Shown here in pieces: positions 20,540 to 42,926 of a stretch of DNA of 64,000 nt (position 1 is the first letter of the stretch; each line of letters begins with the position of its first letter). The position numbers were made by a program, and so were the translations under genes. A model generated the notes under the pieces. That model worked only from the letters and a program-made list of their open reading frames with translations, was not told the DNA's origin and did no database searches. Source of the stretch: Salisediminibacterium beveridgei (GTDB lineage: Bacteria > Bacillota > Bacilli > Bacillales > Salisediminibacteriaceae); contig NZ_CP012502.1 in NCBI RefSeq assembly GCF_001721685.1, positions 2,852,001-2,916,000 of the forward strand, written 5' to 3'.

Positions 20540-20543
20540 CGAT

Positions 20544-22382: not shown

Positions 22383-22399
22383 GGTTCTCATCTCCTTGT

Positions 22400-24045: not shown

Positions 24046-24068
24046 AAAAACAGCTCATATCCAGTCAA

Positions 24069-24713: not shown

Positions 24714-24714
24714 G

Positions 24715-25773: not shown

Positions 25774-26303
25774 CAGGTTTTCCCCTCCTTTTTCCAGGAT
25801 CCATCAGCAATCTGTTCAAGCACACGGTGGATCCCGCCGTAGCCTGTGCAGCGGCAGAGATTCCCGGACAGCGCATCTTTCAGATCTTCATGACTCGGAT
25901 CTGACTTTTTCTTCAAGTATCCGCTTAAGGATACGATCATGCCCGGTGTGCAATACCCGCATTGCAGAGCCCCTTCTTCAAGGAACAGCTGTTGAATGTG
26001 ATTGACTTGGCTGTCCTTCTCTGAGAGACCTTCGATGGTGTCAATTCTGCGACCATCAATCTGATAAGCCATTAACAGGCAGCTGTTCATCGGCCGCCCA
26101 TCCACGAGCACCATACACGCACCACATCGACCGACTTCGCAGGACACCTTCGTGCCCGTCAATCCGCAATCTGACCGGATCAGGTCGACTACCCGTCTTT
26201 CCGGAGGCAATTTCTGCTCCACCTCCTCACCATTCAATGTAAACTGAACAGTCATTCCTTGATCTTCTTCTTTGTGATGCAAGGTTTTCGTGACGGGTTT
26301 CAT
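25773..26303 (-). CDS. pucE: xanthine dehydrogenase [2Fe-2S] subunit
   Basis: 176 aa. Two [2Fe-2S] clusters: plant-type CEVGRCGACMVL with a later Cys (MNSCL), and the helical-domain ALQCGYCTPGM and GNLCRCTGYGGI. Carries electrons from the molybdenum site to the FAD subunit. The start follows AAAAGGAGG and overlaps pucD by 4 bp. Confidence 0.96.
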   Translation of the reverse strand: MKPVTKTLHHKEEDQGMTVQFTLNGEEVEQKLPPERRVVDLIRSDCGLTGTKVSCEVGRCGACMVLVDGRPMNSCLLMAYQIDGRRIDTIEGLSEKDSQVNHIQQLFLEEGALQCGYCTPGMIVSLSGYLKKKSDPSHEDLKDALSGNLCRCTGYGGIHRVLEQIADGSWKKEGKT

Positions 26304-28591
26304 CGTGTTCCCTCCTTTTCTGTTGGCGTAAGCCAGGCCAAATCTTCCGTCTCTTCCAAAATGCGTTCCGGTGTAACCGGAAGAATCGTGTGCCAGCTGC
26401 CTGTTGCCTCCCGAATGGCTTTGACGATGGCCGGCGCCAGTGCCACAGATCCGATTTCACCTACACCCCTTGGTCCAAAGCTGTCTCCTTCAGGCAATGT
26501 TTCATTGGCTGTCACCTGTTGCTGGTGGGGCACATCTTTAATCGTTGGCACCAGGTAACTGTCAAGATTTCTGGTTGCATAGCGTCCTTCTGTCATGACA
26601 GCATCTTCGCTCAATGTAAAGCCCAGAGCCATGATGCTTCCGCCTTCGATTTGACCGAGATACCCGAGAGGATTCATCACTTCTCCTGCGGATACTGCAT
26701 GATCCACCCGGGTGACAGCTACCTTTCCGTTCAGCGTATTGACCTCTACTTCGGCCATTACTGCCGTGGAGCCGTAGAGATAATGGCCACCCAATACAGG
26801 GTCCGGCGTCACGGGAAAATGATGTTCGGTAGATGCGTAAATCATTTCGGCGCTCTTGTTCTCAAGATCCTGGTAAGGTAAAACCAGCGATTGTTCCGTC
26901 TTGTGCCAGATCCCTCCGGTTCCGGTGATCAACTCCTCCTCGTCAAGGCCTGTCTGCTTCGCAGCTTCTTCCAATAGCGCTTTTCGAAAAGGTCCGCGCA
27001 TCCGTTGAATGCTTTGCCAAACCATGTTGGTAGTCCTTGAAGCTGTGGAAGATCCGCTTGCAGGAACTTGTGCGGTATCGCCGATTTGAATCTGAATATC
27101 TTCTTTACTGCATGAGAAAGCTTCTGTCAACATCACTCCAAGTGTACCAATGAGTCCTTGTCCGAATTCTTCATGGCCAAAAGCAGCGAGGATTTTTCCT
27201 TCTGGAGTGAGCTTTAATTCACCACCCGCAGGGTCCGGTATCCCGTAACCAAGCCCGGAACCATGAAAAGCCAGTGCCATGCCGCGTCCGATTTTGATCC
27301 ATGGTTCTGTCGGGTGCGTTTCAGATGCTGCCAATTCAGAGAGTGGCGATTTCAGAATGTCGTTCAGAACCTGACGCGGGCCATCATTTGGTGCCACAAC
27401 TTGCGCCATTGGCCCAGGGTCCTTCTCATTTCGGATATTAAGATGCCTCAATTCCCATGGATCCAAACCGCTTTCCTCTGACAGCCTGTCGAGCTGCCCT
27501 TCAAGAGCAAAAGTGGCCTGATTGCCGCCAAAGCCCCTGAATTCTCCGGACACGCCGTTATTTGTGTACACCGCACGTCCAGCCAATGAAACGTGAGGGA
27601 TCTGGTAAGGCCCTACCGTATGCTCCACAGCGAAATTCAATACCGGCCCGCCTAATGTGGCGTAGGCACCTGTATCAGAAATGATTTCAGCAGCGTGAGC
27701 AATGAGTTTTCCTTCCTTTGTCATACCGGTCTTCATCGTAATGACCATGGGATGACGCTTGATCCCTGCTATGACGGACTCCCCACGGCTGAAATGCATT
27801 TTAACCGGCCGTTGTGTGAAAACCGCGAGCAACGCCCCGTAAGGTTGAGCGTTCAGTTCGTCCTTCCCGCCGAAAGATCCGCCAATGGGACTCGAGATCA
27901 CCCGGATCTTCTCTTCATCCATATCCAGAATCCGTGCCAGTTGCATACGATCCTTGTAGCCATGCTGGGTGGCTGCTTTGACGGTTAATCCCCCGTCTTC
28001 TTCCGGGATGAAAAGGCCCCCCTCTGTCTCCATAAATACATGCATCTGTCTCGGGGTTTCGTAGGTTGTTTCAACGATATAGGCAGCTTCACTGAATGCT
28101 CCTTCAGCGTCTCCCCGCCGATAGGTTCGTTCATGGAGCACATTACCCTCGGGATGAAGCTTTGTTGCCCCTTTATCAAGGGCTTTCTCAGGTGTATCGA
28201 GAACAGGCAGCAACTCATAATCCAGTGTAATGACTGATGCTGCATGCTCAGCTGCTTCTTTTGATTCTGCAGCGATGGCTGCGACAGCGTCTCCTTCATA
28301 GCGGATATGGTCCGAGCAGAAAACGGGCTGGTTCGGATCAGCAATACCGAATCCGTTCAAACCGGGGACATCTTCTGCTGTGATGACGGCGATCACACCG
28401 GGTACTGCCTTTGCTGCTTTCGTGTGAACTTCTTTTAGCCTGGCATGAGGAATATGACTTCGCACCACTTTGCCATGGAGCATGTCATTGTCCATCAAGT
28501 CCGTCAGATACTGCAGCTTACCGGTTGTCTTATCTTTGCCGTCAGGACGAATCTGCCAGCCTCTTCCTGCCTTTCGGTCATTCAGCAGCAT
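26300..28591 (-). CDS. pucD: xanthine dehydrogenase molybdopterin subunit
   Basis: 763 aa large subunit that hydroxylates hypoxanthine and xanthine to urate. N-terminal Ald_Xan_dh_C domain, then two cofactor-binding domains with GGSFGGKDE, GEFRGFGGNQ (substrate arginine) and the catalytic glutamate in RGVGEIGSVALAPA near the C-terminus. The ATG at 28591 is eight bases after GAGGG; a GTG three codons earlier touches that site. Overlaps pucC by 14 bp. Confidence 0.95.
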   Translation of the reverse strand: MLLNDRKAGRGWQIRPDGKDKTTGKLQYLTDLMDNDMLHGKVVRSHIPHARLKEVHTKAAKAVPGVIAVITAEDVPGLNGFGIADPNQPVFCSDHIRYEGDAVAAIAAESKEAAEHAASVITLDYELLPVLDTPEKALDKGATKLHPEGNVLHERTYRRGDAEGAFSEAAYIVETTYETPRQMHVFMETEGGLFIPEEDGGLTVKAATQHGYKDRMQLARILDMDEEKIRVISSPIGGSFGGKDELNAQPYGALLAVFTQRPVKMHFSRGESVIAGIKRHPMVITMKTGMTKEGKLIAHAAEIISDTGAYATLGGPVLNFAVEHTVGPYQIPHVSLAGRAVYTNNGVSGEFRGFGGNQATFALEGQLDRLSEESGLDPWELRHLNIRNEKDPGPMAQVVAPNDGPRQVLNDILKSPLSELAASETHPTEPWIKIGRGMALAFHGSGLGYGIPDPAGGELKLTPEGKILAAFGHEEFGQGLIGTLGVMLTEAFSCSKEDIQIQIGDTAQVPASGSSTASRTTNMVWQSIQRMRGPFRKALLEEAAKQTGLDEEELITGTGGIWHKTEQSLVLPYQDLENKSAEMIYASTEHHFPVTPDPVLGGHYLYGSTAVMAEVEVNTLNGKVAVTRVDHAVSAGEVMNPLGYLGQIEGGSIMALGFTLSEDAVMTEGRYATRNLDSYLVPTIKDVPHQQQVTANETLPEGDSFGPRGVGEIGSVALAPAIVKAIREATGSWHTILPVTPERILEETEDLAWLTPTEKEGTR

Positions 28592-29444
28592 AGTGATCAC
28601 CCTCTATATATGAATGAATATTCTGAATAATTAAATTGGAAGCCACCCGCTGTTTGTAGCTCTTTGACAGGAAAGGATCTTCAGGGGGTGAATAGTCTTT
28701 TAATATTTGTTCTTGCAAAAGCCTGTAATGTTTCCCTTCAACCAACGGAACCGCCATCAGCGACTGTTCCAACTGTTTCAACCTGACGGGTTCCATTGTT
28801 CCTCCAGCCGCAGCTGCCCGGATGTGAGAAAATGTTCCGCTTTTTTTGTTTAACCGTCCACTGATTGCTACTGTCACTGCAGATGGGATGAACGCTTCCC
28901 GCCTGCCTGTTTTTTCATAGAACGTAAGAGAAAGATTCTCCTCTGTTTTTGGGAGGATCAGTTCCACGATTAATCCGGGGCATCCCTCTTGAAGCCAATC
29001 TGTTAAGAGGAGCTCCCGTCGTTTCAGATGATCGTCGTAACTGATACGTGCATCCAATGCAATGAGAGCCGGCAGACTGTCACCAATCCCTGTAGCGATA
29101 TTTCCACCGATGGTCGCCTGCTCCCGAATGGAAGGTGCAGCGATTTGCTTAATGGCCTTCGAGAAAATCGGTGCTTTTTCTCGTATTCTTTCATCCTCTT
29201 CCAATTCTGCAAAAGTGGTCATCGATGAAATGCGAAGCTCTTCTTCTGCCAGGTGGATCCCCTGATTCAATTCGGGAATCCTGTCCAGCCGGATCCACTG
29301 TTTGGCATCGTTCAATTGCCCCGCTTCCCACTGTGTTCGAAGCCAGGTCGTTCCTGAGAGCCAGAGACTGTCATCAGGAGCATTGTCTTTACAGAACCAG
29401 GCTTCTTCCAATGACTCGGGAGCCTGAATGGTTTTCATCGGCAT
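28578..29444 (-). CDS. pucC: xanthine dehydrogenase FAD subunit
   Basis: 288 aa. FAD_binding_5 domain with the FAD motif TIGGNIATGIGDSLPAL (about 107) and a CO dehydrogenase flavoprotein C-terminal domain (about 175-280). Passes electrons to NAD. First gene of the pucC-D-E-A-B operon; the ATG at 29444 follows GGAGGGAG. The 280-bp divergent region to allB (29445-29724) has a TTGACA at 29639 pointing right, but no clear -10 or recognisable PucR box. Confidence 0.92.
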   Translation of the reverse strand: MPMKTIQAPESLEEAWFCKDNAPDDSLWLSGTTWLRTQWEAGQLNDAKQWIRLDRIPELNQGIHLAEEELRISSMTTFAELEEDERIREKAPIFSKAIKQIAAPSIREQATIGGNIATGIGDSLPALIALDARISYDDHLKRRELLLTDWLQEGCPGLIVELILPKTEENLSLTFYEKTGRREAFIPSAVTVAISGRLNKKSGTFSHIRAAAAGGTMEPVRLKQLEQSLMAVPLVEGKHYRLLQEQILKDYSPPEDPFLSKSYKQRVASNLIIQNIHSYIEGDHYAAE

Positions 29445-29724
29445 TTCTGCTCCCTCCTCTGCATTGCCCTTTGATTTCATTCATTCTATTCTTTATCCAT
29501 TTCAGGGTCATTGTGTATCCTCTACAAAATCAGCATGTTTTTTTGGGCACGATAACCGGGCAATTGTTCTTCACCGCGCTGACCTGCCTGAAGGTTTACA
29601 AACTACCTTATCGGAAATCACGTTTTGATAAAAGAATGTTGACAGATTAACTGACAAACTTTCCACATTCCGTCTTTAAAACATGCACAATGGATGGAAG
29701 ATGATGCAGGAGGTGTATCTATTT

Positions 29725-31110
29725 ATGCATACCATCATTCAAAAAGGTTCGGTCTGGACAGAGAACGGTTTTATCCAGAAGGATCTTTTGATCATAGACG
29801 GAATCATTCAGCGTATCGCTGAGTCCATCCCGGTTCAGGGGAATGCTGAGATCATAGACGCAGGCGGAAATTGGATTGTACCGGGTTTCATTGATCCCCA
29901 TGTCCATTTTAATGAACCGGGACGAACAGAGTGGGAAGGGATTCGCAGCGGTTCCGCCGCTGCTGCTGCAGGAGGGATCACCACGATCGTGGACATGCCG
30001 CTGAATTCCCACCCTTCCGTCACCACCGGTCAGCTGGCATTGGCTAAAAAGTCTTCCTTAGAGGGGAGATCTTATGTGGATTACGGTTTGTGGGGCGGGA
30101 TCACCGCTGACAATTGCAGGAATTACACGGAGCTGAACAATCAGCTGAGTCACGGTGTGATTGGATTCAAAGGGTTTATGTCCAACAGTGGGATCCATGA
30201 CTTCCCTTATCTGGACCGGTCAGATTTAAGAGAAGCGATGGCTTTCTGTGCTGAAAAGCAGGTCATTCTGGCACTGCATGCCGAAGCGGAAGAAGAATTG
30301 GCAAAAACGGCACACCGGCAGGGACCAGGCAGGCGTTCATTCCTTGATTCCCGACCGGTTGAAGCAGAACTCGTGGCGCTTGAGTGGATCATTGAAGACG
30401 CACTCCGATACGGGACGGCAGTTCATGTTGTCCACGTCAGTTCTGCAGACGGCGTCCTGATGCTGAATGAAGCGAAACGTTCCGGTGCAGATATTACCAT
30501 CGAGACATGCCCCCATTACCTGCTCTTCACAGATGAGGATTTCATCAATCAGGGGCCTCTATTAAAATGCGCGCCCCCTCTTCGTTCAGATGAAGTTCGC
30601 GAAGAACTTTGGGACGTGCTCTCAAAAGGAATGATTGATACGATAGGCAGTGACCATTCGCCTTGCCCGATACCTATGAAAGAGGCAGGGAATGAAGATA
30701 TCCGAGAAGCCTGGGGCGGGATACAAGGCGTTCAATTCGGACACCGTGCGCTGTTATCGGAAGGATTGAAACGGGGCCTTACCTTTGAAACCCTTTTGCC
30801 GATGATGACACGAAATCCGGCGAAACGATTTTTACCCGACGGTGCAGGCGGGACGATTGCTCCAGGAACACCCGCAAATTTGACCCTGATGAAAGACAAA
30901 GAAACGACCATTCACAATACAGAAATTCTGTTCAAACATAAACGTTCCCCTTATGCAGGGATGCAGGTTCAGCTTGATGTCGACCGGGTCCTGCTGCGGG
31001 GGAAATCCATCTATCTGGGCGGTGCCTGGGTAACAGGCCCGCCAACAGGCAAATGTTTGACATGGGGAGGTATGCAAGATGATCAAGGAACATTACGGCG
31101 CATTTATTGA
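29725..31110 (+). CDS. allB: allantoinase
   Basis: 461 aa cyclic amidohydrolase opening allantoin to allantoate. Metal motifs: DPHVHFNEPGR (about 55), the lysine region VIGFKGFMSNSG (about 148), LHAEAE, VVHVSS and GSDHSPCP (about 315). The ATG at 29725 fits the family start and follows AGGAGG by 11 bases; in-frame ATGs 21-24 bases upstream are possible. It overlaps the amidase by 32 bp. Divergent from the xanthine dehydrogenase operon. Confidence 0.92.
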   Translation: MHTIIQKGSVWTENGFIQKDLLIIDGIIQRIAESIPVQGNAEIIDAGGNWIVPGFIDPHVHFNEPGRTEWEGIRSGSAAAAAGGITTIVDMPLNSHPSVTTGQLALAKKSSLEGRSYVDYGLWGGITADNCRNYTELNNQLSHGVIGFKGFMSNSGIHDFPYLDRSDLREAMAFCAEKQVILALHAEAEEELAKTAHRQGPGRRSFLDSRPVEAELVALEWIIEDALRYGTAVHVVHVSSADGVLMLNEAKRSGADITIETCPHYLLFTDEDFINQGPLLKCAPPLRSDEVREELWDVLSKGMIDTIGSDHSPCPIPMKEAGNEDIREAWGGIQGVQFGHRALLSEGLKRGLTFETLLPMMTRNPAKRFLPDGAGGTIAPGTPANLTLMKDKETTIHNTEILFKHKRSPYAGMQVQLDVDRVLLRGKSIYLGGAWVTGPPTGKCLTWGGMQDDQGTLRRIY

Positions 31111-32254
31111 TGAAGAATTAACCGTTGCACCATATAAAAGCGGCATTCTCCACGGCAAGAGCTTTGCGGTGAAAGACGTAATTCACGTCGCCGGTCACAA
31201 AAACAGCGCAGGAAATCCGGATTGGTTCAAAACACATGAAGCCGCAGAGGAAACTGCTCCTGCCATTCAGAAATTATTATCTTCAGGTGCAACACTTAAG
31301 GGGATGACAGTAACCGATGAGATGATGTACAGTCTCCACGGTGAAAATATCCACTACGGAACACCAGCGAATCCCGTATCCAAAAAACTGATTCCAGGAG
31401 GCTCATCCAGTGGATCGGCGGTTGCCGTCGCATCCGGTCTGAGAGATTTCGCCATCGGTACCGACACCGGCGGTTCCGTTCGTATTCCTGCCGCTTACTG
31501 CGGATTATTCGGATTCCGTCCCAGTCACGGTTTGATTTCTCTGGAAGGTGTCATTCCTCTGGCTGAGACCTTCGATACCGTCGGCTGGTTCACGAGAAAA
31601 GCGGCCCTCCTTGAAGATATCGGGGAGGTACTCCTTCCTGATCCGCCAAAGGCTGCTCCGCCGTTCAAACGGGCCGTAGTGGCAGCGGATGCGTTTCAGT
31701 TACTCACTGATTCTCAGAAAAACGCTTTGATGTCTGCCATCATCAGTTGTTCCAGCAAGGTGAGCACCCGCGAGGAACAACCTGTCACTTCAGACGATTT
31801 ATCCAATTGGGTGGACGTCTTCAGAGTCATCCAAGGGTATGAAATCTGGCAAAATCACGGTGAGTGGGTCAGTCAGCATGAACCCGCATTCGGTCCCGGG
31901 ATCCGTGAACGGTTCCGCATGGCCTCAACGATCACTGAAGAGGATGTGGCTGAAGCCCGCAGGCGACAGCTGATGATCCAGGATGCTGTCAGTGATTTGA
32001 TGCAAGAAGATACGTTGCTCATTTTGCCGACTATTGCAGGAGAAGCACCTGAAATCGGCCTGGCTCCTGAAGAGGTTGATCAGATCCGTCAACGGACGAT
32101 GCAGTTAACCTGCATTGCCGGGTTAAACGGCCTGCCGCAAGTCACGCTTCCTGTAAAACAAGGTGGTGGATTAGCACCACTGGCGATCTCCATCATCGCT
32201 CCCCGTGGGCGGGATCGGGATCTCTTAACCTTCGTCACTTCGTTATGTGATTGA
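31079..32254 (+). CDS. amidase signature family hydrolase
   Basis: 391 aa, a short member of the family. The catalytic triad is visible: Lys in FAVKDVI (about 30), cis-Ser in PGGSSSGSAV (about 107) and nucleophile Ser in DTGGSVRIP (about 131). It hydrolyses an amide of unknown nature. Coupling to allB (32-bp overlap, GGGGAGG ribosome site inside allB) points to a late allantoin catabolite such as a ureido or oxamate compound, but this is inference; relatives include allophanate hydrolase and AMI1. Confidence 0.85.
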   Translation: MIKEHYGAFIDEELTVAPYKSGILHGKSFAVKDVIHVAGHKNSAGNPDWFKTHEAAEETAPAIQKLLSSGATLKGMTVTDEMMYSLHGENIHYGTPANPVSKKLIPGGSSSGSAVAVASGLRDFAIGTDTGGSVRIPAAYCGLFGFRPSHGLISLEGVIPLAETFDTVGWFTRKAALLEDIGEVLLPDPPKAAPPFKRAVVAADAFQLLTDSQKNALMSAIISCSSKVSTREEQPVTSDDLSNWVDVFRVIQGYEIWQNHGEWVSQHEPAFGPGIRERFRMASTITEEDVAEARRRQLMIQDAVSDLMQEDTLLILPTIAGEAPEIGLAPEEVDQIRQRTMQLTCIAGLNGLPQVTLPVKQGGGLAPLAISIIAPRGRDRDLLTFVTSLCD

Positions 32255-32262: not shown

Positions 32263-32312
32263 AACCAAAAATGACCCCCGCGCTGTTAACAGCGCGGGGG
32301 TCATTTTTGGTT
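32263..32312. terminator. perfect 50-bp palindromic bidirectional terminator
   Basis: Two perfectly complementary 25-base arms meet at 32287/32288 with GC-rich centre CCCCCGCGCTG/CAGCGCGGGGG and outer AACCAAAAA/TTTTTGGTT. It separates the convergent allB-amidase and creatininase operons; its right end overlaps the creatininase-family stop codon. Confidence 0.85.
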
Positions 32313-33126
32313 ATGTGGTTGTTTTTAACAGGTTGTCCAGTTCAAAGGCTGCCATTTCTTCCAATGCTTCGGCCATTTCTTCAGCGGATCGGAGATAGAC
32401 TGTATCTCCCTTTTCAGAAGTAGCCTTCGTGGCGTCTCCTGCAGTCCCACCATAGGATAGCTCGTTCACTTTCCAGGCCAGACGTGCTTTGGCACCAATG
32501 AGGCCAATGTGCTTTGTATCCCTTATAGGCGGGAATTCGCACACTGCCTTGTCCATATGCACCCACTCGGGCTTCATCGCCATTACCATGCTCGTTTCAA
32601 CATCGCCGCCATGGATGCCCCATTTCAACTCTTCTTCTGTAAAGACATCTTTCACATTTCCTGTACCCGAAGAAGTAACAAAGACCGTCATACCGGTTTT
32701 TACATGAATTTCTCTGGCCATAACATTTAACAAATCCACGTTGCCTCCGTGGGAATTGTACAGAGCCAATTTCTTAAATCCGCTCCGGGCAAGGCTGTCT
32801 CCGATGTCTTCAAGAACAGCCTGCAACGTCTTCGCCGTCAAGGTAAGGGTACCTGGGAAATCGATATGTTCATTGCTCTTCCCATAAGATAAAGGGGGAA
32901 TGAGCCAGATATTGCTGCCGGGTGCCAATGCTTCAAAAGCTTTTGTGATCGATGCCTCACCAATCAGCATATCCGTTGCCACAGGTAAATGGGCACCATG
33001 CTGTTCCACTGCGCCAATCGGCAAAACCACCAGCGCATCTTCCTTATTCAAAGCCTTCACTTCCTGATAGGTGAGCCTGGGTAGAAAATGCTGATCCCAG
33101 GCTTTCCCTTCATAACGTGTAAACAT
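32311..33126 (-). CDS. creatininase family amidohydrolase
   Basis: 271 aa. Metal and catalytic motifs of the creatininase fold: GAVEQHGAHLPVATD (about 37-51), YNSHGGNVD (about 122) and HGGDVETS (about 173). Known family activities include creatinine amidohydrolase, cyclic amide hydrolases and deformylases, so the substrate is open. The ATG at 33126 follows GGAGATGAGG; a TTG seven codons earlier is less likely. Last gene of the seven-gene ABC/deaminase operon (39937 to 32311). Confidence 0.88.
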   Translation of the reverse strand: MFTRYEGKAWDQHFLPRLTYQEVKALNKEDALVVLPIGAVEQHGAHLPVATDMLIGEASITKAFEALAPGSNIWLIPPLSYGKSNEHIDFPGTLTLTAKTLQAVLEDIGDSLARSGFKKLALYNSHGGNVDLLNVMAREIHVKTGMTVFVTSSGTGNVKDVFTEEELKWGIHGGDVETSMVMAMKPEWVHMDKAVCEFPPIRDTKHIGLIGAKARLAWKVNELSYGGTAGDATKATSEKGDTVYLRSAEEMAEALEEMAAFELDNLLKTTT

Positions 33127-33149
33127 GACCTCATCTCCATTCCTCAAAA

Positions 33150-34208
33150 CTATTGTGGCAGAAATTCCGTGTTGAACGCTTCTGTAACATCCTGCTCTTC
33201 AGTTAATAGATCAATATCCAACAAGATTTTCATAACCGACTGCCAGCGTTCTTCCGTCATGTAACCTACACCATGGTCTTCAGCATCGTACTCATACACT
33301 AATGGTTGCAAGGCTTCTGCACTGTAGGCAAGCTGTTCCGTACTCATCTCTGGGTTGTACTCCTGAATGAAGGATTGTACTTCTTCATGGTTATCCTTGT
33401 AATATTCCCAACCGGCAACAGATGCTTCAACATAGGCCTGAACCACTTCCGGTTGCTCTTCAATCATTTCCTCGGTGGTGAATAACAGATTTCCATATAC
33501 CTCAAAACCTGATTCACCGTTCAGTAACCAGTCCACTTCCACCCCTTGCTGTTCGAGACCGTATGGTTCACTGGTCATATAGGACTGGGACACGGCTTCT
33601 TCATTTTCCATGAACATGGTGCTGTCTCCGGTGTAACTGTATTCATTCACATCCAGATCGAATTCTCCCTTCATGAATTCCCAAAAACCTGCACCTGGTG
33701 AAACATAAACATCCCGACCGTTCAAATCGGTAAAGTCCTCAATGTCCTGACCTTTATGAAACATTAACGCTTGAGGACTCTGCTGGAAAATACCTGCGAT
33801 GGCCACGAGGGGAATGCCATCTTCACGGGCCAAAAGGATTTCATCCGAGGAACCCATACCGAAATCTTGCTGACCCGAAGCAACCAGCTGGGTATTGGAT
33901 ACCCCGCCGCCACCTGCCTGAATGGTCATATCAAGACCCTCGTCTTCATAAAAACCCATCATATGAGCCGCGAACTGCCCCCCTTGTTCTGCCTGGGCGT
34001 ACCAGTTCGTCACCTGGCCCACTTCGATCAACTCCTCATTTCCGGAGTTCTCTTCATTTACTTCATTCGCTTCATCGGATTCATTGTTCCCGTTGACAGT
34101 CGTCGCTTCCACATTCTCATTCGCCGGTTCTTCTCCACAGGCTGAAAGTAATACCAATCCTGCCATAGCTGTCATTCCTGCACCTTTAATCATGTACGAT
34201 TTTTTCAT
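33150..34208 (-). CDS. ABC transporter substrate-binding lipoprotein, NMT1/ThiY type
   Basis: 352 aa. Lipoprotein signal with LLSACG at residues 20-25, an Asn/Glu-rich linker (to about 60), then an NMT1/THI5-like periplasmic-binding fold: TNWYAQAEQGGQFAA, AGGGGVSNTQLVASGQQDFGM and VYVSPGAG. Family members bind aromatic or pyrimidine ligands (HMP precursors, riboflavin, sulfonates, cyclic ureides). Partner of the permease at 35579 and ATPase at 37871. The ligand is unknown; the setting suggests a nitrogen heterocycle. Confidence 0.88.
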   Translation of the reverse strand: MKKSYMIKGAGMTAMAGLVLLSACGEEPANENVEATTVNGNNESDEANEVNEENSGNEELIEVGQVTNWYAQAEQGGQFAAHMMGFYEDEGLDMTIQAGGGGVSNTQLVASGQQDFGMGSSDEILLAREDGIPLVAIAGIFQQSPQALMFHKGQDIEDFTDLNGRDVYVSPGAGFWEFMKGEFDLDVNEYSYTGDSTMFMENEEAVSQSYMTSEPYGLEQQGVEVDWLLNGESGFEVYGNLLFTTEEMIEEQPEVVQAYVEASVAGWEYYKDNHEEVQSFIQEYNPEMSTEQLAYSAEALQPLVYEYDAEDHGVGYMTEERWQSVMKILLDIDLLTEEQDVTEAFNTEFLPQ

Positions 34209-34222
34209 GTGATCGTCACTCC

Positions 34223-35554
34223 TTAATTTTTTGTATGCTCATCATCGCTGTGCACATGACAGTCAGATGCATCAAACCAATGGACCGAACGCTTTGTTTT
34301 CGATAACAGCCTTCCACTTCGTATCACCAGTCGATCCGGCGAAAGATCCGCCAATAACCCGCTCACCGTTTCATTATTCGTGACAACGCAATTGGCCGGT
34401 GCTCCTTCAGAAAAACCGTACGTACCACTGTGATACCCTAACGCTTTTGCAGGATGCTCCGTAATCATCGCCAACGTGTTCAGCCGATCGGACTCACTGT
34501 TCATATGAGCAGCGTAGGTGGACAATCGTGCGATTTCCAACAGATCACCCTGACCGAATGGATGGAATGGATCCTGAATGTTATCACTGGCTACAGCTAC
34601 ATTTACACCCAGTTCATGCAGTTCTTTCACCCGTGTGACACCCCTTCGAATCAAACCTCTGTCTGAACGGCCCTGCAAATACATATTTGCACCCGGGAGC
34701 GTCATGACATGGATTCCTGCGTCCTTTATCACATGCATGGTCTGATCTGCTTTGGCCTGATCCATCGCTGACAGCGAACATAAGTGACCCACGGTGACTT
34801 GATGTTCCATGCCCCGATTCAGCACTTCCGTTGCAATCATCGAAACGGTATTGACACTCGGATCGTCCGTTTCATCCGAGTGGAGATCCAGCGGTTTGCC
34901 AGTCTTTTCACTGAACTCGAACAATGCTCTGACGGAAGCTTGAAAATCCAAAGACAAATGCGGTGCTCCCCCGATGCCGTCAATGCCGGCAGCAAGTCCT
35001 TCTTGAAGCAAACCTTTAAACGAATCATCCAAGGTGACTGGATCGCTCATGATATAAAGCTGCAGATCCATGATGTCCTGCACTTCTTTTTTCACCTCGA
35101 GGGCCGCTTCTATCGTACGCTTTGCCACGGTACCGTCATCCGCTGTAAAAAAATCGAGATGCGTACGCATGGCTGTCGTGCCGAATGCGGCTGAATCGAG
35201 CACCGTTCGCTTCATCCGCTGCTTCACATTCTCCTTTGATATACCAGGCGCTTGTTCGCGGTAGTTCTGAATGGCTTCCATCAGCGTTCCACTTTCATTC
35301 CCCGCAATGGCCAGCGTATGAGCTTTATCCAAATGCACATGACCATCCACCAGTCCGGGCAACACGATCCGGTTACCAGCATCAATTCGTCTGACCTGCG
35401 TGGCATTCGCCTGCTCGGAAGAGGTCAAAAATGACGCTGACCAAAGCGTATTCTGTTTTGAGATCTGAATCCATTTCCCGTCTTCGGCGATCAGATGATA
35501 CCGGTCCGTGTCATTCTGTAACGGCAACTTTGCATTCATGATTTCAAGTCTCAC
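34223..35554 (-). CDS. CodA-like metal-dependent deaminase/amidohydrolase
   Basis: 443 aa, related to cytosine deaminase. Metal motifs: GHVHLDKAH (about 70), LHSDETDDP (about 225), TVGHLCSLS (about 257) and ASDNIQDPF (about 325). The family deaminates cytosine, isoguanine, creatinine and similar rings; LDKA after the HxH, instead of the usual LDT, separates it from true CodA. The start used is a GTG with GAGGTGG upstream; an ATG at 35569 with a weak site is possible. Second such enzyme in this operon. Confidence 0.83.
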   Translation of the reverse strand: MRLEIMNAKLPLQNDTDRYHLIAEDGKWIQISKQNTLWSASFLTSSEQANATQVRRIDAGNRIVLPGLVDGHVHLDKAHTLAIAGNESGTLMEAIQNYREQAPGISKENVKQRMKRTVLDSAAFGTTAMRTHLDFFTADDGTVAKRTIEAALEVKKEVQDIMDLQLYIMSDPVTLDDSFKGLLQEGLAAGIDGIGGAPHLSLDFQASVRALFEFSEKTGKPLDLHSDETDDPSVNTVSMIATEVLNRGMEHQVTVGHLCSLSAMDQAKADQTMHVIKDAGIHVMTLPGANMYLQGRSDRGLIRRGVTRVKELHELGVNVAVASDNIQDPFHPFGQGDLLEIARLSTYAAHMNSESDRLNTLAMITEHPAKALGYHSGTYGFSEGAPANCVVTNNETVSGLLADLSPDRLVIRSGRLLSKTKRSVHWFDASDCHVHSDDEHTKN

Positions 35555-35578
35555 CGCCCACCACCTCATTTCTCATCA

Positions 35579-36433
35579 TCAATGATTCATCTCAGACTCA
35601 TGCCAGGAACGCAAGAGCAGTTTGGAAATATAGTTAATTAACAAAAAGAAGGTAATACCAAGAACCGATGCTGCCAGCCCAAGAGAGAACAGATACGCCG
35701 TCTGGATATTCGAAGATGCGACTGTTATCGCATAGCCCAATCCGCCCCGGCCACCGCCGATTCCGGCGATATACTCCCCGGCAATAACACCGATGGTCGC
35801 AAGCGTACACGAAATCTTCAAACCGGCTACTATATAAGGAAGCGCAGCCGGCAGTCGTAAACGCCACATCGTCTGAAACTTGGATGCATGATACAGTTTA
35901 AACAGGTCCATCAGATTTTTGTCCGTTGAATTCAGTCCCACCAGTGTGTTTGAAAGCATTGGAAAGAATCCGATCAAGAACGCGATAATGACGATAGCAT
36001 TTGTCCCGGCACCGAACCAGATCACGATAATCGGCGCCACTGCGATAATTGGAATGGTCTGAAGCAGCACCACATAAGGATAAAATGCTTTTTCCACCCA
36101 TTTCGATGAGGCCAGCGCGATCGCTCCGGCTATCCCAAAAATCACACTGAGGGCAAAGCCCATCACCGCTGATGTAATGGTGCGCCATACAGCTGCCAGG
36201 AGATTCTCATAGTTGGCAACCGTCGCCGCGTATATATCTGTTGGAGCCGGCAAAATGTAATGCGGCATATCCATGACAATGGTCAAAAGTTGCCAGCTGC
36301 CGAGAAAAACCGCCAACACAGCCAATGGTAAAATCGACTGTTTTAAAAAGCCTGTCACTTTCCCTGACCATTCAAATGATGCTTTTTTCTCTTGAGTATG
36401 TTCCACCGGAAGTGCCGGACTTTTCATTGCCAT
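35579..36433 (-). CDS. ABC transporter permease, SsuC/ThiX type
   Basis: 284 aa, six to seven membrane helices with the cytoplasmic coupling segment LYHASKFQTMWRLRLPAALP (about 185-204), typical of the BPD permease family serving NMT1-type binding proteins. Likely dimeric, working with the ATPase at 37871. The ATG at 36433 lies nine bases after GGAG. The N-terminal 25 residues are hydrophilic. Confidence 0.9.
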   Translation of the reverse strand: MAMKSPALPVEHTQEKKASFEWSGKVTGFLKQSILPLAVLAVFLGSWQLLTIVMDMPHYILPAPTDIYAATVANYENLLAAVWRTITSAVMGFALSVIFGIAGAIALASSKWVEKAFYPYVVLLQTIPIIAVAPIIVIWFGAGTNAIVIIAFLIGFFPMLSNTLVGLNSTDKNLMDLFKLYHASKFQTMWRLRLPAALPYIVAGLKISCTLATIGVIAGEYIAGIGGGRGGLGYAITVASSNIQTAYLFSLGLAASVLGITFFLLINYISKLLLRSWHESEMNH

Positions 36434-36479
36434 AAAGCATCTCTCCTTTTTTCTCAATGTGTTCGTCTTCTGTAATTCT

Positions 36480-37826
36480 TCAGCCTGCCTGCCGGGCCTT
36501 TTTCAATTCAGGAAGCTTCCCGGGATTCAACAATCCTTTCGGATCATTCAGAGCCTTTGCCTCAAGGATCTGTTCGAAGCGGCCCTTGTTATCGATCGGC
36601 AGCAAGAATGTATGCGGATCATTGACGCTGACGCCGATGGATTCAAAGTAATCAATAATCTCATACAGCCTTTCCCTGGACTGATACTCGATTACCGGTA
36701 AAGAACCGATCTGAATGTCTCCGTCACCCCGGACCCACTCGACGTGCAAATGCACTTCATCCGGATACCGCTGTTTAATGTTTCGCATCTGATCAAGATA
36801 ATGGTGGGTGGAAAACCCGCTTTGTAAATAGGTTAACGTCGGGTCCGTCTTCAGTGCCCATAATGTTGTATGATTCCATGTGAAGTCTGACAGACTCATT
36901 TCTTTATGATAGCGATCCGCCGGAATCACCCGGGTAATCTGTCCATGATGACTGGACGAGAGTTCTTTCAGTCTGCTGTCATCTCCAGCTTCTATCTCTA
37001 TGAGAGCCACAGCCTTACCTTCTTCGATATATGGAGCCAATGGAACGAAATAGGTGGGAATCGGCGTTTCATGTCCGCTGACAAGACGCTTTCGTATCTC
37101 GTCGTCGTATGCAAGGGACTCTGTAAAAGCCAGCATGTCTTCCCCTTCATCGAACTGGACGATGACCTGTTCCCAATCCACGGCTTCTGCTGTGCGGATC
37201 GTCAGTTGAACCATGATGCCGGATGTGCCGTAATTATGGATATACCGGTTTAATTCATCGCCCTTTACCGTCAGGATTCGGGGCTCTTCTTCCATCGTCA
37301 GAATGTGGGCTTCCAAAAGATTCCCATCCCAGACGTTACCCCAGGCAATCGATCCGATGCCGCCGCTTCCACCTGAGAAGAAGCCGCCTACTGTCGCTTT
37401 CATGTAGGTACTTGGATAAATGCACAATTCACTTCCTGCTTCCCGCAATTCCTTCTCCAAACGGCCCAGCTTCACACCAGCTTGCACGGTTACCTGACCA
37501 GGCTCCATCGCGATGATTTTGTTCAATCCGCTTAAGTCCAGGACCAGTCCGCCATATGAAGGTATGCCCTGACCGTAGTTTCCTGTTCCGGCTCCCCGGG
37601 TTGTAACCGGAATATCGTGGGTATAACAGGCTTTCAAAACAGCCAGTGCCTGTTCAACCGTTTCCGGTTTCGCCACCCCGTCCGCCACTTTATCTGCCAG
37701 TTCGGCAGCGAGTACCGGCGAATACCAGTAGTAATCCTTGGATAATTTGTTTGTCTCCTGTTCTTCTGTAATGACCGTTGACCCCATTTCTTCTTCAAAA
37801 CGTTCCCAATTTGGTTGTGTTTTCAT
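36480..37826 (-). CDS. FAD-linked oxidase (PCMH-type)
   Basis: 448 aa. PCMH FAD-binding domain (about 50-230) with TTRGAGTGNYGQG as phosphate loop and ATVGGFFSGGSGG; the C-terminal half resembles the GlcD/D-lactate dehydrogenase group. No signal peptide or membrane segment. Placed inside an ABC importer operon between permease and ATPase genes, it most likely oxidises the imported compound or a product of it; no substrate can be named. The ATG at 37826 follows GGAGGG by six bases. Confidence 0.83.
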   Translation of the reverse strand: MKTQPNWERFEEEMGSTVITEEQETNKLSKDYYWYSPVLAAELADKVADGVAKPETVEQALAVLKACYTHDIPVTTRGAGTGNYGQGIPSYGGLVLDLSGLNKIIAMEPGQVTVQAGVKLGRLEKELREAGSELCIYPSTYMKATVGGFFSGGSGGIGSIAWGNVWDGNLLEAHILTMEEEPRILTVKGDELNRYIHNYGTSGIMVQLTIRTAEAVDWEQVIVQFDEGEDMLAFTESLAYDDEIRKRLVSGHETPIPTYFVPLAPYIEEGKAVALIEIEAGDDSRLKELSSSHHGQITRVIPADRYHKEMSLSDFTWNHTTLWALKTDPTLTYLQSGFSTHHYLDQMRNIKQRYPDEVHLHVEWVRGDGDIQIGSLPVIEYQSRERLYEIIDYFESIGVSVNDPHTFLLPIDNKGRFEQILEAKALNDPKGLLNPGKLPELKKARQAG

Positions 37827-37870
37827 CATCAGCCCTCCATTTTTTATGCACTTCGGATTTATCACAATAA

Positions 37871-38644
37871 TTAATGGTTTAAAATACCTGAAACCTTGCC
37901 GACCAGCTGACCGAATTCCTGACTGGAACGAAACTGATCGCCTCTTGGGTACCCTGCATCAATATCCAGAATGGAAGACACCTTTCCGGGTCCCGGGGTC
38001 ATGACCGCCAGTTTTGAGGACAAGTAAACCGCTTCGAATACATTGTGTGTAATGAACAGCACCGTCATTTTCGGATCCTGCTGCCAAATTTTAAGAAGCT
38101 CCTGTTGCAGTGACTGCCTCGTGATTTCATCCAATGCGCCGAACGGTTCATCCATCAACAGGAGTTTCGGCCGTGTGACAAGCGCACGGGCTATGGATAC
38201 CCGCATCTTCATACCACCGGATAATTCACGTTGCAGCATATCCTTGGTATGTGCCAAGCCGACCAGTTCTAGAACACGATCCACTTCCTCATACCGCTTC
38301 TCTTTGCTGACGCCTTTCAGTTCAAGAGGAAGGGCCACATTATCCTTGACCTTACGCCAGGGAAGCAAGGTGTGATCCTGAAAAACAAAGGCCACTTCAT
38401 TTTCTTTGCGTGCATTTGCCGGGGATTTTCCGAAAATCTCAATTTCCCCCTCTGTTGCCTCTTCCAGTCCGGTAATCATCTTGAATACTGTCGATTTCCC
38501 GCAGCCTGAAGGGCCAACGAAGCAGATGAATTCACCTTCCGGAATGTCCATGTTCACATTACGGACAGCGACGGTACCATTTGGATATACTTTCCCAAGT
38601 CGATTCATCTTTACGAGGACTTCTTTTTTCGTTGCCACTGTCAT
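37871..38644 (-). CDS. ABC transporter ATPase, SsuB/TauB/ThiZ type
   Basis: 257 aa. Walker A GPSGCGKST (about 45), Q-loop FVFQDHTLLPW, signature LSGGMKMRVSIARAL (about 143), Walker B LLLMDEPFGALDE and switch His in FITHNVFEA. Energises the permease and NMT1-like binding protein of the same operon. Confidence 0.94.
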   Translation of the reverse strand: MTVATKKEVLVKMNRLGKVYPNGTVAVRNVNMDIPEGEFICFVGPSGCGKSTVFKMITGLEEATEGEIEIFGKSPANARKENEVAFVFQDHTLLPWRKVKDNVALPLELKGVSKEKRYEEVDRVLELVGLAHTKDMLQRELSGGMKMRVSIARALVTRPKLLLMDEPFGALDEITRQSLQQELLKIWQQDPKMTVLFITHNVFEAVYLSSKLAVMTPGPGKVSSILDIDAGYPRGDQFRSSQEFGQLVGKVSGILNH

Positions 38645-38668
38645 TTTTTCATCACCTCTATGGTCAGT

Positions 38669-39937
38669 TTAGATTTCTATGATGTCAGCCGTCTTTGGGA
38701 CGGTCATCTTCAGTTCGGACGTCACCTGCGGTGTATAAGAGAGGATTCGACCTCTCCGGAACACATAGCGCGGTGCCTGTGCATGACCGATCCATTCTTC
38801 CGGCGCTTCACCTTCCAGTAAAATCAGATTGGCGTGCTCTCCCTCAGCGATGGATGTCTCGGAAAGACCCATCAGCTTTCTCGGAACAGGCCCGATCATT
38901 GCCATGACTTTCTGAAGTTCTTCCTTCGCCGTCAGCTGCCCGAGGTGAACCAGAAGATTCGCGGATTTTAAAAGCGATCCCGTTCCCAAAGGGTAGAAAG
39001 GACTTCGATAGTCATCATGGGCACAGGCAACAGGAATGTTTGCCTTCATTAATTCTTTCACCCGCATGATGCCCCTTCCTTTCGGTGAAGTCCGGGTTCG
39101 CCCATTCATGACGCTGTTGACTGTCGGGCAGGTCACAAGATGAATGCCCGAGGAAATCAGTGCCTCCAGCAACTTCACCATATCCGTTTCACTCGCATAT
39201 TCCATCGCATTGGCATGACTCACAGCCGTCCGGTTCTCCCATCCATATCTTTGAGCAACTTTTGCGACTTGTTCGGTAAATCTCGAATCCGACTCGTCCG
39301 TTTCATCTGCAAAGATATGAACTGTTGCATCTTCTGATACAGCCAGATCAAAACACTGTTTTATGGAGTCAGAACCTTTCTTTCTCGTTTCCTCCAAATG
39401 AGGCACAGCGCTTATGCCATCAGCGCCAATTTCCAGCGCCTCTTTCATATGTCTTATGCCATCATCTCCTGAACAAATCCCGTTTTGCGGAAAGGCAATC
39501 AATTGAAGGTCAAAGAGCTCTCTGCCCGCTTCTCTCATTTGAACCAGTGCACGCATCGCTGTGAGTTGGCCACCGGAGACATCCACCATCACCCGAAAGC
39601 TCTGGACACCTTCCGTAAGCATTTTGCCCAGCACCCGCTCGGCCTTTTCCTGAACGAGGGATTCTGTCAACCTCGGCCTCAGCTTTTGCCAGATCGCAAT
39701 GCCCTCATCCAGGGTACCGGACTGATTCTCCATTTCATCAGCACAAAACGCTGTATCCAAATGAATGTGCGCTTCCGCAAAAGGAGGCATTACCGTCAAT
39801 CCGCTCCCATCGATCCGTTCTGCTTCAGAACAGTGGATTTCAGGAGCGATCTCTGCGATCAGTCCATGGTGTAACCGGATATCAACAGGGTCATCTTCTC
39901 CAGGCATCTTTACAGATTTAATCAAGATCGGTCTCAT
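38669..39937 (-). CDS. CodA-like deaminase/amidohydrolase, second copy
   Basis: 422 aa. Metal motifs AHIHLDTAF (about 55), IFADETDESDSRF (about 210), VSHANAMEY (about 240) and CAHDDYRSPFYPLG (about 310). Closer to classical cytosine deaminase than the copy at 34223, which has diverged motifs; the two may act on successive ring intermediates. First gene of the operon; the ATG at 39937 follows GGAGGTG. Confidence 0.83.
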   Translation of the reverse strand: MRPILIKSVKMPGEDDPVDIRLHHGLIAEIAPEIHCSEAERIDGSGLTVMPPFAEAHIHLDTAFCADEMENQSGTLDEGIAIWQKLRPRLTESLVQEKAERVLGKMLTEGVQSFRVMVDVSGGQLTAMRALVQMREAGRELFDLQLIAFPQNGICSGDDGIRHMKEALEIGADGISAVPHLEETRKKGSDSIKQCFDLAVSEDATVHIFADETDESDSRFTEQVAKVAQRYGWENRTAVSHANAMEYASETDMVKLLEALISSGIHLVTCPTVNSVMNGRTRTSPKGRGIMRVKELMKANIPVACAHDDYRSPFYPLGTGSLLKSANLLVHLGQLTAKEELQKVMAMIGPVPRKLMGLSETSIAEGEHANLILLEGEAPEEWIGHAQAPRYVFRRGRILSYTPQVTSELKMTVPKTADIIEI

Positions 39938-40236: not shown

Positions 40237-40253
40237 GTTGTTTCATTTGTAAA

Positions 40254-41897
40254 TCAATCAATCATTTGCCTTACGAGGAGTGCTGTCCTTAATTTGTGAA
40301 TATCCTCGGCATTCTTCAAATCCACATGTAATTTTTCCTCACATTTTTTCAATCTGTAAATCACCGTATTCCGGTGAACAAATAATGCTTTTGCGGTATC
40401 GGCAATCTGTCCATTGTTCTCAATGTAAATGGTCAACGTCTCTATCAGATCTTCATCTTCTTTCTTTTTTGACTCAGCCAAAGACCTCAAAGTGGACTGA
40501 TAAAATTCCCGCAGCTTTTTCGGTGACACGGTTCGAAGGAGTTCCATCACGCCGCGCGTATCTGTCCATTTCACGAAACCTTTTTTGCCCATACGGTATC
40601 CGGATGTCAATGCTTCGAGTGCCTCTGTGTAAGAGTCCGGTATTTGGAGCAGTGCAGTGGCCGGATTCCCCACACCGAAAGAGATCGACAAATACAGAAA
40701 TTCTTCCATTTCCTTCTGAATAGTTTTGAGTCCTTTTAAAAGCCAGTCCTCCATCTCCGGCTCCGGTCTCGGGATCAGCGTGATATAAATATCCCCTTTG
40801 GAAAAAAAGACCACATCATCGAAGTAATAGCCCATCCACATCTGCAGCTGTTCATAAATGGAATCTTTATACAGCCTGCGTTCAGACTCCGGAGCAGGAC
40901 CAAGACCATGGTAGAGATCCTCCTCATCATCAAGCCGGCAGACTGCGCAGACATAAGTCCGGTCAAGCCGAAGTCCGTAGCTCTCTCCACGTCTGGCAAT
41001 ATCTTTTTCTGATGTGTAATGCCCTTCAGCGAACTCCGTCAGAAATTCATTCTTCTGCAACCTCGACTGTTGTTCGACAGCATGCAGTTTCATGAGTTCA
41101 AAGGAGATGACATTCATGGCCTGTTCCACCGCAAGCTTTTCGGAATCGCCTGCATCTGCCATATCCATCATCAAAATCAGATACCCTTTCTGATACAGGT
41201 TCATCTGCACAGGATAGAAAGAAGCTGTATGTTCATGGTCGTCATGGGGATAGCGGATAGCCAATTTCTGTTCAGCCCCGTTGTCCGGATCTTCATCTCG
41301 AATGGTGTCACTGATCTGGTAAGCAAGATCATAATAAAATTGTTCATCAAACTTCCTGGACGTCTCCAACAGATTCAAGCGGTAATCCAAAAGCATCACG
41401 GGCGCATTGATCCGCTTGGCCAGTTGATCCACCACCTCAAAGAGTCCTTTCCCCGAAATAATCAGATCCGTAAATTTTCTGTGAATCTCCATCGCTTCTG
41501 TCAGCTGATCCGTACTTTCCTGAAGAATCACCTTCAGCACTTCATTCACAATTTCCCCAAGAGAAGGCTCCATCGGCAGTTCAATAATGGGAAACTTTAA
41601 TTGCTCGGCTTTTTCAAGCACCGAAGGAGGGATGGTTTTCAGAAAACGGTGCGTTTTAAGAGCCAGACCTGCGCAGCCCCTTTCAGCCATTTTACTGACG
41701 ATATCAGACAGAATCTCCGGACGGTGCTGAATATTATAGCCCGTTGTCAACAGTAACTGATTTTTCTTGACATAATCGATGATGTCCGGTGCGTCCATCA
41801 TATTCACAGACGTCACCTGATTCAAAGTTCCTTCCGCTCCTGCAACGACAACGGCATTCTTAAGCACCGGCTCGTTTAATAGCGCTCTCAGCTGCAT
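40254..41897 (-). CDS. pucR: PucR-family transcriptional regulator
   Basis: 547 aa. N-terminal PucR domain (about 5-125; NMMDAPDIIDYVKKN, LLLTTGY), a central CdaR GGDEF-like region (about 290-415), and a C-terminal PucR HTH (about 480-540; GQIADTAKALFVHRNTVIYRLKK). In B. subtilis PucR activates puc genes in response to allantoin-type inducers. Position between the ABC operon and the FAH/YunD genes, near the puc cluster, suggests control of this whole region. The ATG at 41897 is eight bases after GGAGG. The gene symbol rests on family and context. Confidence 0.85.
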   Translation of the reverse strand: MQLRALLNEPVLKNAVVVAGAEGTLNQVTSVNMMDAPDIIDYVKKNQLLLTTGYNIQHRPEILSDIVSKMAERGCAGLALKTHRFLKTIPPSVLEKAEQLKFPIIELPMEPSLGEIVNEVLKVILQESTDQLTEAMEIHRKFTDLIISGKGLFEVVDQLAKRINAPVMLLDYRLNLLETSRKFDEQFYYDLAYQISDTIRDEDPDNGAEQKLAIRYPHDDHEHTASFYPVQMNLYQKGYLILMMDMADAGDSEKLAVEQAMNVISFELMKLHAVEQQSRLQKNEFLTEFAEGHYTSEKDIARRGESYGLRLDRTYVCAVCRLDDEEDLYHGLGPAPESERRLYKDSIYEQLQMWMGYYFDDVVFFSKGDIYITLIPRPEPEMEDWLLKGLKTIQKEMEEFLYLSISFGVGNPATALLQIPDSYTEALEALTSGYRMGKKGFVKWTDTRGVMELLRTVSPKKLREFYQSTLRSLAESKKKEDEDLIETLTIYIENNGQIADTAKALFVHRNTVIYRLKKCEEKLHVDLKNAEDIHKLRTALLVRQMID

Positions 41898-41997
41898 CTG
41901 TTCCACCTCCGGATATTCAGTCTTTCCTTTTACATTAAATGAAAATCAGCTTATCTTGAAGATTTCCGTCAGTAAATCTCACAGAAAAAACGATTTC

Positions 41998-42050: not shown

Positions 42051-42926
42051 ATGGAACTAACCATGATCGAAAAAGACAATCAGCCGATGGCAGCAATAAT
42101 CCGGGAGAATCAGGTGTATACCATTAACAGCATTAACCGGTTCTGTGAAACGGGCTGGCCATTGGTCATACAGGACATCATTGAAAATCGGGTAATTGAT
42201 TTATTGTCCGACTGGTATGAAAACACTCCCTCCGGCATCTGGGAGAGTATTCCGTCAATACCCTTCGAGTTTGTGAACCCGGCAGATCTCTTTCAATCAC
42301 CGAGAGGAATCTGGGGCATCGGCTTCAATTATCAACCTGAAGATGATTCAATGCCAAAAGAGATTCCTGATCACCCGGTAAGCTTTGTCAAGCCTTGGAA
42401 TACAATCTGTTCTGTGAATCAATCCATAGCCATACCTGCTCACAGTCAGGAAACAAATGGCGAAGGGGAAATCGCCCTCATCATCGGTAAGAAGTGCAAA
42501 AACGTGTCACTGACTGATGCAATGAGTTTCATTGCCGGGTATACAACTGCACTGGACATGACCGAAGCAGCCATTCACAGGGAAAATCCCCGCTTTCTGG
42601 CCAGAGCGAAAAGCTTCGATACGTTTTGTGCTCTTGGAACAACATTGCAGACTGCACACAGTTTTTCGCCGGTAAATCGCACCATTCAAACAAAACTGAA
42701 CAACAGGATCATCAGTGAAAATACAACAGAGCGGATGCTGATGAACTTCGAAGAGATTGTCCATTATTTCTCCAAAGAAACAACCTTGTATCCTGGTGAT
42801 GTGATTCTGACAGGAACACCAGGACCGGTCAGAATCCGTGACGGGGATACCCTCACCGCTGAAGTGGATGGGCTCAGAACATTGACCAAGATAGTTGTCC
42901 AGGAGTCAGAACATGCTGCCCGCTGA
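42051..42926 (+). CDS. fumarylacetoacetate hydrolase family protein
   Basis: 291 aa. FAH fold domain in the C-terminal two thirds, with acidic metal ligands in GEGEIALIIGKKC (about 138) and TALDMTEA (about 168), a lysine in RAKSFDTF and TGTPGPV near the end. Members hydrolyse or decarboxylate small dicarboxylic oxo acids (FAH, YisK-type decarboxylase, hydratases). No substrate can be assigned; position opposite the PucR regulator suggests a late catabolic step. Overlaps the next gene by 14 bp. Confidence 0.83.
   Translation: MELTMIEKDNQPMAAIIRENQVYTINSINRFCETGWPLVIQDIIENRVIDLLSDWYENTPSGIWESIPSIPFEFVNPADLFQSPRGIWGIGFNYQPEDDSMPKEIPDHPVSFVKPWNTICSVNQSIAIPAHSQETNGEGEIALIIGKKCKNVSLTDAMSFIAGYTTALDMTEAAIHRENPRFLARAKSFDTFCALGTTLQTAHSFSPVNRTIQTKLNNRIISENTTERMLMNFEEIVHYFSKETTLYPGDVILTGTPGPVRIRDGDTLTAEVDGLRTLTKIVVQESEHAAR

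Follow-up and report, generated by a model that had tools for sequence, protein, structure and literature searches.

Folate-degrading bacteria reportedly accumulate lumazine-6-carboxylate (PMC5919439) as well as deaminated folate and pteroate (PMC9513972), and deamination combined with oxidation is therefore a real route for the pteridine ring. How folic acid is broken down in the environment is described in PMC9513972 as not fully elucidated, and the gene-level map of microbial pterin-ring recycling, from folate or other pterins, is poor. A flavin oxygenase of known structure (PDB 6V42) was deposited under a title that assigns it to folate catabolism. Here, a stretch of 64,000 nucleotides from Salisediminibacterium beveridgei (NZ_CP012502.1, positions 2,852,001 to 2,916,000; hereafter the window) was analysed, in which a homologue of this flavin adenine dinucleotide (FAD) enzyme is encoded in a seven-gene operon with an ATP-binding cassette (ABC) importer, two CodA-family amidohydrolases and a creatininase-superfamily hydrolase. 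The operon is genuine: it represents, in Bacillota, a module that occurs in several phyla.

By open reading frame (ORF) and family-profile annotation, the seven genes all lie on the minus strand, from 39937 down to 32311, with the families and order given in an initial annotation of the window:

38669..39937, minus strand: CodA1, CodA-family amidohydrolase with Phe at the metal-ligand His position of strand 5 and a His two residues ahead of it; ORF open to GTG 39979, GGAGG ahead of ATG 39937
37871..38644, minus strand: ABC ATPase, TauB/NrtD type (PF00005; TauB-like at 213 bits, under the cut-off of 357)
36480..37829, minus strand: FAD oxidase/oxygenase of the vanillyl-alcohol oxidase (VAO)/PCMH fold (PF01565); ORF open to GTG 37865
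35579..36433, minus strand: ABC permease (PF00528); ORF open to TTG 36457
34223..35569, minus strand: CodA2, CodA-family amidohydrolase (PF07969), proposed core deaminase of the module
33150..34208, minus strand: NMT1/THI5-type substrate-binding lipoprotein
32311..33126, minus strand: creatininase-superfamily hydrolase (PF02633, 231 bits); ORF open to TTG 33147
32265..32310, no strand: two-way terminator where the operon and an amidase gene converge; inverted repeat with 21 perfect pairs and a 4-base loop
40188..40243, no strand: strong inverted repeat or terminator in the pucR-CodA1 interval

The terminator that had been placed at the end of the operon was recovered as the 21-pair repeat at 32265-32310, found by reading and counting pairs and not listed by an inverted-repeat pattern scan. 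The intergenic gaps, given initially as 14-46 bp, were corrected to 9-46 bp with ATG starts and fall to 2 bp with the longest ORF starts. With inverted repeats at both ends, the seven genes look like one bounded operon. An imperfect 14-bp inverted repeat (40034-40070) upstream of CodA1 is a possible operator.

The FAD enzyme shares full-length homology and its fold with 6V42, well above other VAO members, at 37% identity. The gene set of the rhizobial loci, the closest fetched relatives of 6V42, matches that of the window, with creatininase-family, substrate-binding protein, ATPase, permease and CodA genes in 4/4. As 6V42 is a solved member of this oxidase family and is titled folate catabolism, a pteridine substrate is favoured. 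A further family member, P0057, is 52% identical and labelled as the oomycete Aphanomyces euteiches; it is probably bacterial contamination.

Conservation was assessed in the best 80 of at least 589 confirmed FAD-protein loci, using tblastn with the window genes (E ≤ 1e-10; first pass 1e-8). The loci (numbered with L) were sorted from record titles into Bacillota (17), Acidobacteriota (18), Verrucomicrobiota (14), rhizobia (4), other (2) and cyanobacteria (25). A creatininase-family gene lies near the FAD gene in 54/55 non-cyanobacterial loci (Bacillota 17/17, Acidobacteriota 18/18, Verrucomicrobiota 13/14, rhizobia 4/4, other 2/2) versus 2/25 cyanobacterial ones, and an NMT1-type binding-protein gene in 51/55 (16/17, 18/18, 13/14, 4/4 and 0/2, respectively) versus 0/25. 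The neighbourhood search for a conserved gene set that the initial annotation had suggested thus returned one, and its idea of a single operon importing and stepwise attacking a nitrogen heterocycle is supported across genomes. CodA2-type proteins are distributed unevenly (Bacillota 16/17, Acidobacteriota 0/18, Verrucomicrobiota 1/14, rhizobia 4/4, other 2/2, cyanobacteria 3/25), with the rhizobial and cyanobacterial members assigned by motif and best hit only. Fourteen loci, ten acidobacterial and four verrucomicrobial, carry a PF00383 deaminase-like gene, and a CodA1-type ORF is the best match in 12/17 Bacillota loci. From these counts, the module core consists of the FAD enzyme, the creatininase-family enzyme and the importer, accompanied by a deaminase of varying family; the recurrence of the same genes around the FAD gene in several phyla, cyanobacteria excepted, argues against a chance arrangement.

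Accessory gene clusters, whose names derive from one or two annotated proteins each, comprise WrbA-like proteins (9 loci), CocE/NonD hydrolases (28), RutB/biuret-hydrolase-like isochorismatases (5), cupins (5) and gamma-glutamyltranspeptidases (3). The last are encoded near the FAD gene in L028, L040 (annotated) and L048 and are possibly relevant to glutamylated folates. A VanA-type Rieske oxygenase gene (L011:3553-4638) stands beside the module, with the same cluster represented in L007, L008 and L013; a guaD-like amidohydrolase gene adjoins it in all four loci. The FAD gene is present in two and three copies at L017 and L051, respectively.

We infer the substrate, the order of steps and the reaction of each enzyme as follows. 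Judged by sequence comparison, the operon would import and degrade a pteridine in a route that feeds purine catabolism or runs parallel to it, a reading to which we give a modest preference; a pterin or 6-substituted pterin, for instance a folate breakdown product, is a somewhat probable candidate substrate. The NMT1-type ABC importer would take up an aminopteridine, whose ring amino group would be hydrolysed by CodA2 to yield a lumazine, with CodA1 perhaps doing likewise on a second intermediate. Oxygen would be added to the pyrazine ring by xanthine dehydrogenase, the FAD oxygenase or both; the xanthine dehydrogenase of insects is reported to act on pterins (PMC11121863). The creatininase-family enzyme would open the resulting cyclic amide, and the product would either enter the neighbouring purine/urate pathway or be degraded further by nearby amidase and FAH proteins.

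The genes that flank the operon are as follows:

18003..31110, no strand: near-complete purine/urate degradation cluster, from family and equivalog profile matches
31079..32254, plus strand: amidase gene converging on the operon, possible accessory member (NF006169/PRK08310, 482 bits against a cut-off of 391)
40254..41906, minus strand: PucR-family regulator gene directly upstream of the operon (PF07905, PF13556, PF17853)
42051..42926, plus strand: FAH-superfamily protein beyond pucR, possible accessory member (PF01557)

The PucR-family and FAH genes had been pointed out beforehand, together with a 5'-nucleotidase-family (YunD) gene that is also present near the operon; the purine/urate set at 18003-31110 was absent from that account. 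Within this set, profile cut-offs are exceeded by the xanthine dehydrogenase (pucD equivalog, 816 bits against 784), uricase (261 against 168), allantoinase AllB (450 against 358) and an allantoate amidohydrolase-like protein (453 against 399). A COG0402-type amidohydrolase passes the 5'-deoxyadenosine deaminase cut-off (715 against 522), and a class V aminotransferase stays under the cut-offs shown. HIU hydrolase, OHCU decarboxylase, XdhC-like and MocA-like helpers and xanthine dehydrogenase subunits are encoded there as well. Relatives of the window amidase (44-50% identity) were found in L006, L012, L048, L097, L098 and L099, and relatives of the FAH protein (36-39%) in L006, L012, L016, L048, L098 and L099.

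The FAD family was sought in 299 Bacilli genomes (E ≤ 1e-60), nine of which were positive. Uricase is encoded in 8/9 FAD-positive versus 21/290 other genomes (Fisher test, 2.5e-8) and, counted by genus, in 6/6 versus 7/113 (4.9e-7). For pucD, the figures are 8/9 versus 25/290 over the cut-off (8e-8) and 8/9 versus 55/290 at the looser E ≤ 1e-100 (2e-5; by genus 5/6 versus 29/113, 0.007); since the genomes are related, with four of the nine FAD-positive ones in one genus, the genome-level p values are overstated. The FAD gene and pucD are within about 16 kb on one contig in four of the nine genomes (G000, G083, G057 and G015), and in the other five pucD is far away, on other contigs or not found. 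Both xanthine dehydrogenase and uricase are encoded near the FAD gene in the window, L006, L014, G083 and G015; in Salipaludibacillus keqinensis (L014), uricase and pucF/pucG homologues flank the operon on a single strand and thereby place it inside a near-complete urate pathway.

This linkage and co-occurrence, like the PucR-family regulator upstream, would also fit an operon that imports an unusual or oxidised purine (isoguanine, 8-oxo- or methylated purines) for the neighbouring urate pathway. The pairing of Rieske-oxygenase cluster and guaD-like genes in the Paenibacillus loci (L007, L008, L011, with the VanA-type gene, and L013) points the same way, and the annotated genes of the window, a subset of the total, include no recognised purine permease. 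From family knowledge, however, conversion of isoguanine or 8-oxoguanine to xanthine or urate takes one deaminase and neither an FAD oxygenase nor a cyclic amide hydrolase; moreover, the relation to 6V42 points to folate, and linked purine genes are found in 0/4 rhizobial modules. We regard a purine substrate as unlikely.

A pteridine substrate could be joined to the purine genes by a specific, if doubtful, sequence of steps. Work in the 1960s described the conversion of tetrahydroxypteridine to xanthine-8-carboxylate by tetrahydroxypteridine cycloisomerase (EC 5.5.1.3), and creatininase reversibly opens a cyclic amide. After import and deamination of pterins, oxygenation at C6/C7 would yield 6,7-dihydroxylumazine. 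Ring contraction of this compound to xanthine-8-carboxylate would fall to the creatininase-family enzyme, which, given the chemistry of its namesake, would suit an EC 5.5.1.3 step; the carboxyl group would then be lost, perhaps through the FAH protein, before entry into the xanthine/urate pathway. A step of this type would explain the purine neighbours. Going by family chemistry and older biochemistry, decarboxylation may be the task of the FAH protein, and the EC 5.5.1.3 reaction that of the creatininase-family protein; if true, this funnel would give a gene to an enzyme known from old biochemistry.

In an alignment of the window creatininase-family protein with 14 of 38 clustered orthologues, EQH, D59, HGG and E184-T185 are invariant in all 15 sequences. 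The protein scores below both equivalog cut-offs, those of creatininase (TIGR04448, 106 versus 235 bits) and MftE (116 versus 172). A FastTree tree separates the CodA1 and CodA2 proteins of Bacillota into two groups, and both window proteins fall short of the NCBIfam cytosine deaminase cut-offs (best scores 316 versus 438 for CodA1 and 272 versus 403 for CodA2). CodA2 keeps the HxH, H214, H246 and D313 positions, lacks the FPQ glutamine, which is also missing in other aligned CodA2-type proteins including the rhizobial CodA, and has D-N in place of D-D. We take H214 to be a metal ligand within the set HxH, H214 and D313, and the FPQ glutamine to bind the cytosine substrate, following E. coli CodA roles and numbering.

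These residues bear on a third explanation, in which a pyrimidine, triazine or hydantoin-type ring (a cytosine derivative, creatinine, N-methylhydantoin or a vicine-type aminopyrimidine) is imported and opened independently of purines. Rings of this type are substrates of the CodA and creatininase superfamilies, the nearest structures of the binding protein bind aminopyrimidines, RutB/biuret-hydrolase-like isochorismatases accompany some modules, and the rhizobial CodA exceeds the PRK07583 'cytosine deaminase' equivalog cut-off (665 versus 403 bits). Nevertheless, CodA1 and CodA2 each lack one cytosine-deaminase residue, the creatininase-family protein is under its equivalog cut-off, and the co-occurrence with uricase and xanthine dehydrogenase is left unexplained; we consider such a substrate improbable. 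Creatinine or hydantoin, named as candidates at the outset, are weakened by the sub-cut-off NCBIfam score, the absent HYEN motif and the missing CodA residues, so that from the initial interpretation the heterocycle import and attack operon was retained and this choice of substrate was dropped. Deamination of cytosine or 5-methylcytosine is likewise weakened by the residue changes in CodA1 and CodA2, although the rhizobial CodA passes the cytosine deaminase cut-off.

CodA1 departs from E. coli CodA at the third metal-ligand His, on strand 5, reading H-[IVLF]-[F/L]-x-D-E where the latter reads D-V-H-C-D-E. Among the 120 proteins listed from 2063 homologues, 36 retain H at the H214 position, while F takes its place in 83 and L in 1. 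These 84 proteins without His make up a single clade (support 0.94):

38669-39937, P0121-P0205 (minus P0197 and P0198) and P0210: CodA1-clade members

A His two residues earlier is present in 84/84 clade members, and Asp occupies this position in the 36 others. Beyond the 120, exceptions are L096 (N-V-F) and the distant CodA1-like proteins of L065 and L094, with V at the H214 position; the remaining conserved stretches of CodA1 (HxHLD, FPQ, SH and HDD) are mostly kept. Because residues i and i+2 face the same side of a strand, the metal ligand may have moved, and CodA1 may be a deaminase whose strand-5 metal-ligand His is shifted by two residues. The clade provides a natural experiment in metal-ligand relocation within a well-studied enzyme fold. 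No account of this shift was recognised in the literature, in searches that were not aimed at it.

The nearest solved structures of the binding protein carry thiamin and the formylaminopyrimidine FAMP, as would be expected if the operon served salvage of the thiamine pyrimidine (HMP/FAMP) and the enzymes were unrelated passengers. There is no Rfam match within 16000-47500 of the window, and hence no thiamine pyrophosphate (TPP) riboswitch in this interval, whereas another NMT1-type importer of the genome has one:

L107:6742-9501: second NMT1-type importer encoded in this genome, preceded by a TPP riboswitch

The binding protein and the enzymes also travel together in 51/55 non-cyanobacterial loci. 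Thiamine-pyrimidine salvage is very improbable on these grounds, uptake of a thiamine precursor being weakened by the other, TPP-controlled importer; the operon importer is probably not the thiamine-precursor importer.

Several observations weigh against pteridine import and degradation. The folate link rests on the depositor's title of 6V42, on whose structure the literature search turned up no paper, and neither a carboxypeptidase G nor a p-aminobenzoate gene is among the annotated module neighbours, many of which carry no annotation. The closest structures of the binding protein bind thiamine compounds rather than pterins, and a cytosine deaminase equivalog cut-off is exceeded by the CodA of rhizobia. 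In the midpoint-rooted tree, rhizobial and cyanobacterial CodA do not cluster with Bacillota CodA2. The cyanobacterial FAD gene stands apart from binding-protein genes and rarely has a creatininase-family neighbour. Xanthine dehydrogenase and uricase are absent from the fetched stretch of 13/17 Bacillota loci, some of which end at contig ends, and purine genes from within 10 kb of all four rhizobial loci; the purine link is thus not obligatory. Some modules contain extra hydrolases (CocE-like, RutB/biuret-hydrolase-like, amidase, FAH), which a simple route to xanthine would not need; this argues for a different route in at least some of the modules.

PucR boxes are not enriched: the consensus (WWWCNTTGGTTAA, ≤2 mismatches) has 25 matches in the window versus 30 expected, one of them at the terminator edge (40241-40253) and none between there and CodA1. 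A comparison for shared operator motifs gave just one 10-mer common to the region upstream of CodA1 and the xdh/allB intergenic region. The GC content is about 0.40-0.41 at the right end of the window (56000-64000) versus 0.45-0.52 elsewhere in it.

No description of the operon or its coupling to urate degradation was recognised in a literature search whose coverage left out most subscription journals. The initial view of an undescribed system is right only in part, as the FAD family has a solved member in 6V42; the chemistry class and this one enzyme family are already known. Present in Bacillota, Acidobacteriota, Verrucomicrobiota and rhizobia, a portable module that combines an importer with a deaminase, a flavin oxygenase and a hydrolase would make pterin recycling directly testable.

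Compared with known systems, the operon adjoins the constituents of a Bacillus-type puc cluster (xanthine dehydrogenase, uricase, allantoinase and a PucR-type regulator); its seven genes are not known to belong to the puc set of B. subtilis. With creatininase (TIGR04448; 1j2t, 3a6h), the window hydrolase has in common the superfamily and most of the positions presumed to bind metal, but it reads HGGN instead of HYEN. CodA1 and CodA2 belong to the same amidohydrolase subfamily as the CodA proteins of E. coli (1k6w) and Klebsiella (4r7w), with which they align over most of their length, yet CodA1 lacks the H214 ligand position and CodA2 the FPQ glutamine. The ThiXYZ thiamine-precursor importer (3ix1) shares the binding-protein family and importer type, but the operon, unlike a second NMT1 importer of the genome, has no TPP riboswitch. 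Folic acid degradation by Variovorax sp. F1, through carboxypeptidase G and pterin deaminase, has in common with the present proposal the deamination of a pterin ring by an amidohydrolase, here a proposed early step. The accessible part of this account (PMC9513972) mentions neither an importer nor a flavin oxygenase or creatininase homologue, and its main text does not contain the word transporter. No PDB sequence match bears the name of the pterin deaminase Arad3529. Relative to PDB 6V42/6V43, the window enzyme is a distant Bacillota homologue accompanied by a second CodA-type protein and, unlike the four rhizobial loci, which have none within 10 kb, it stands in a uricase-pathway neighbourhood.

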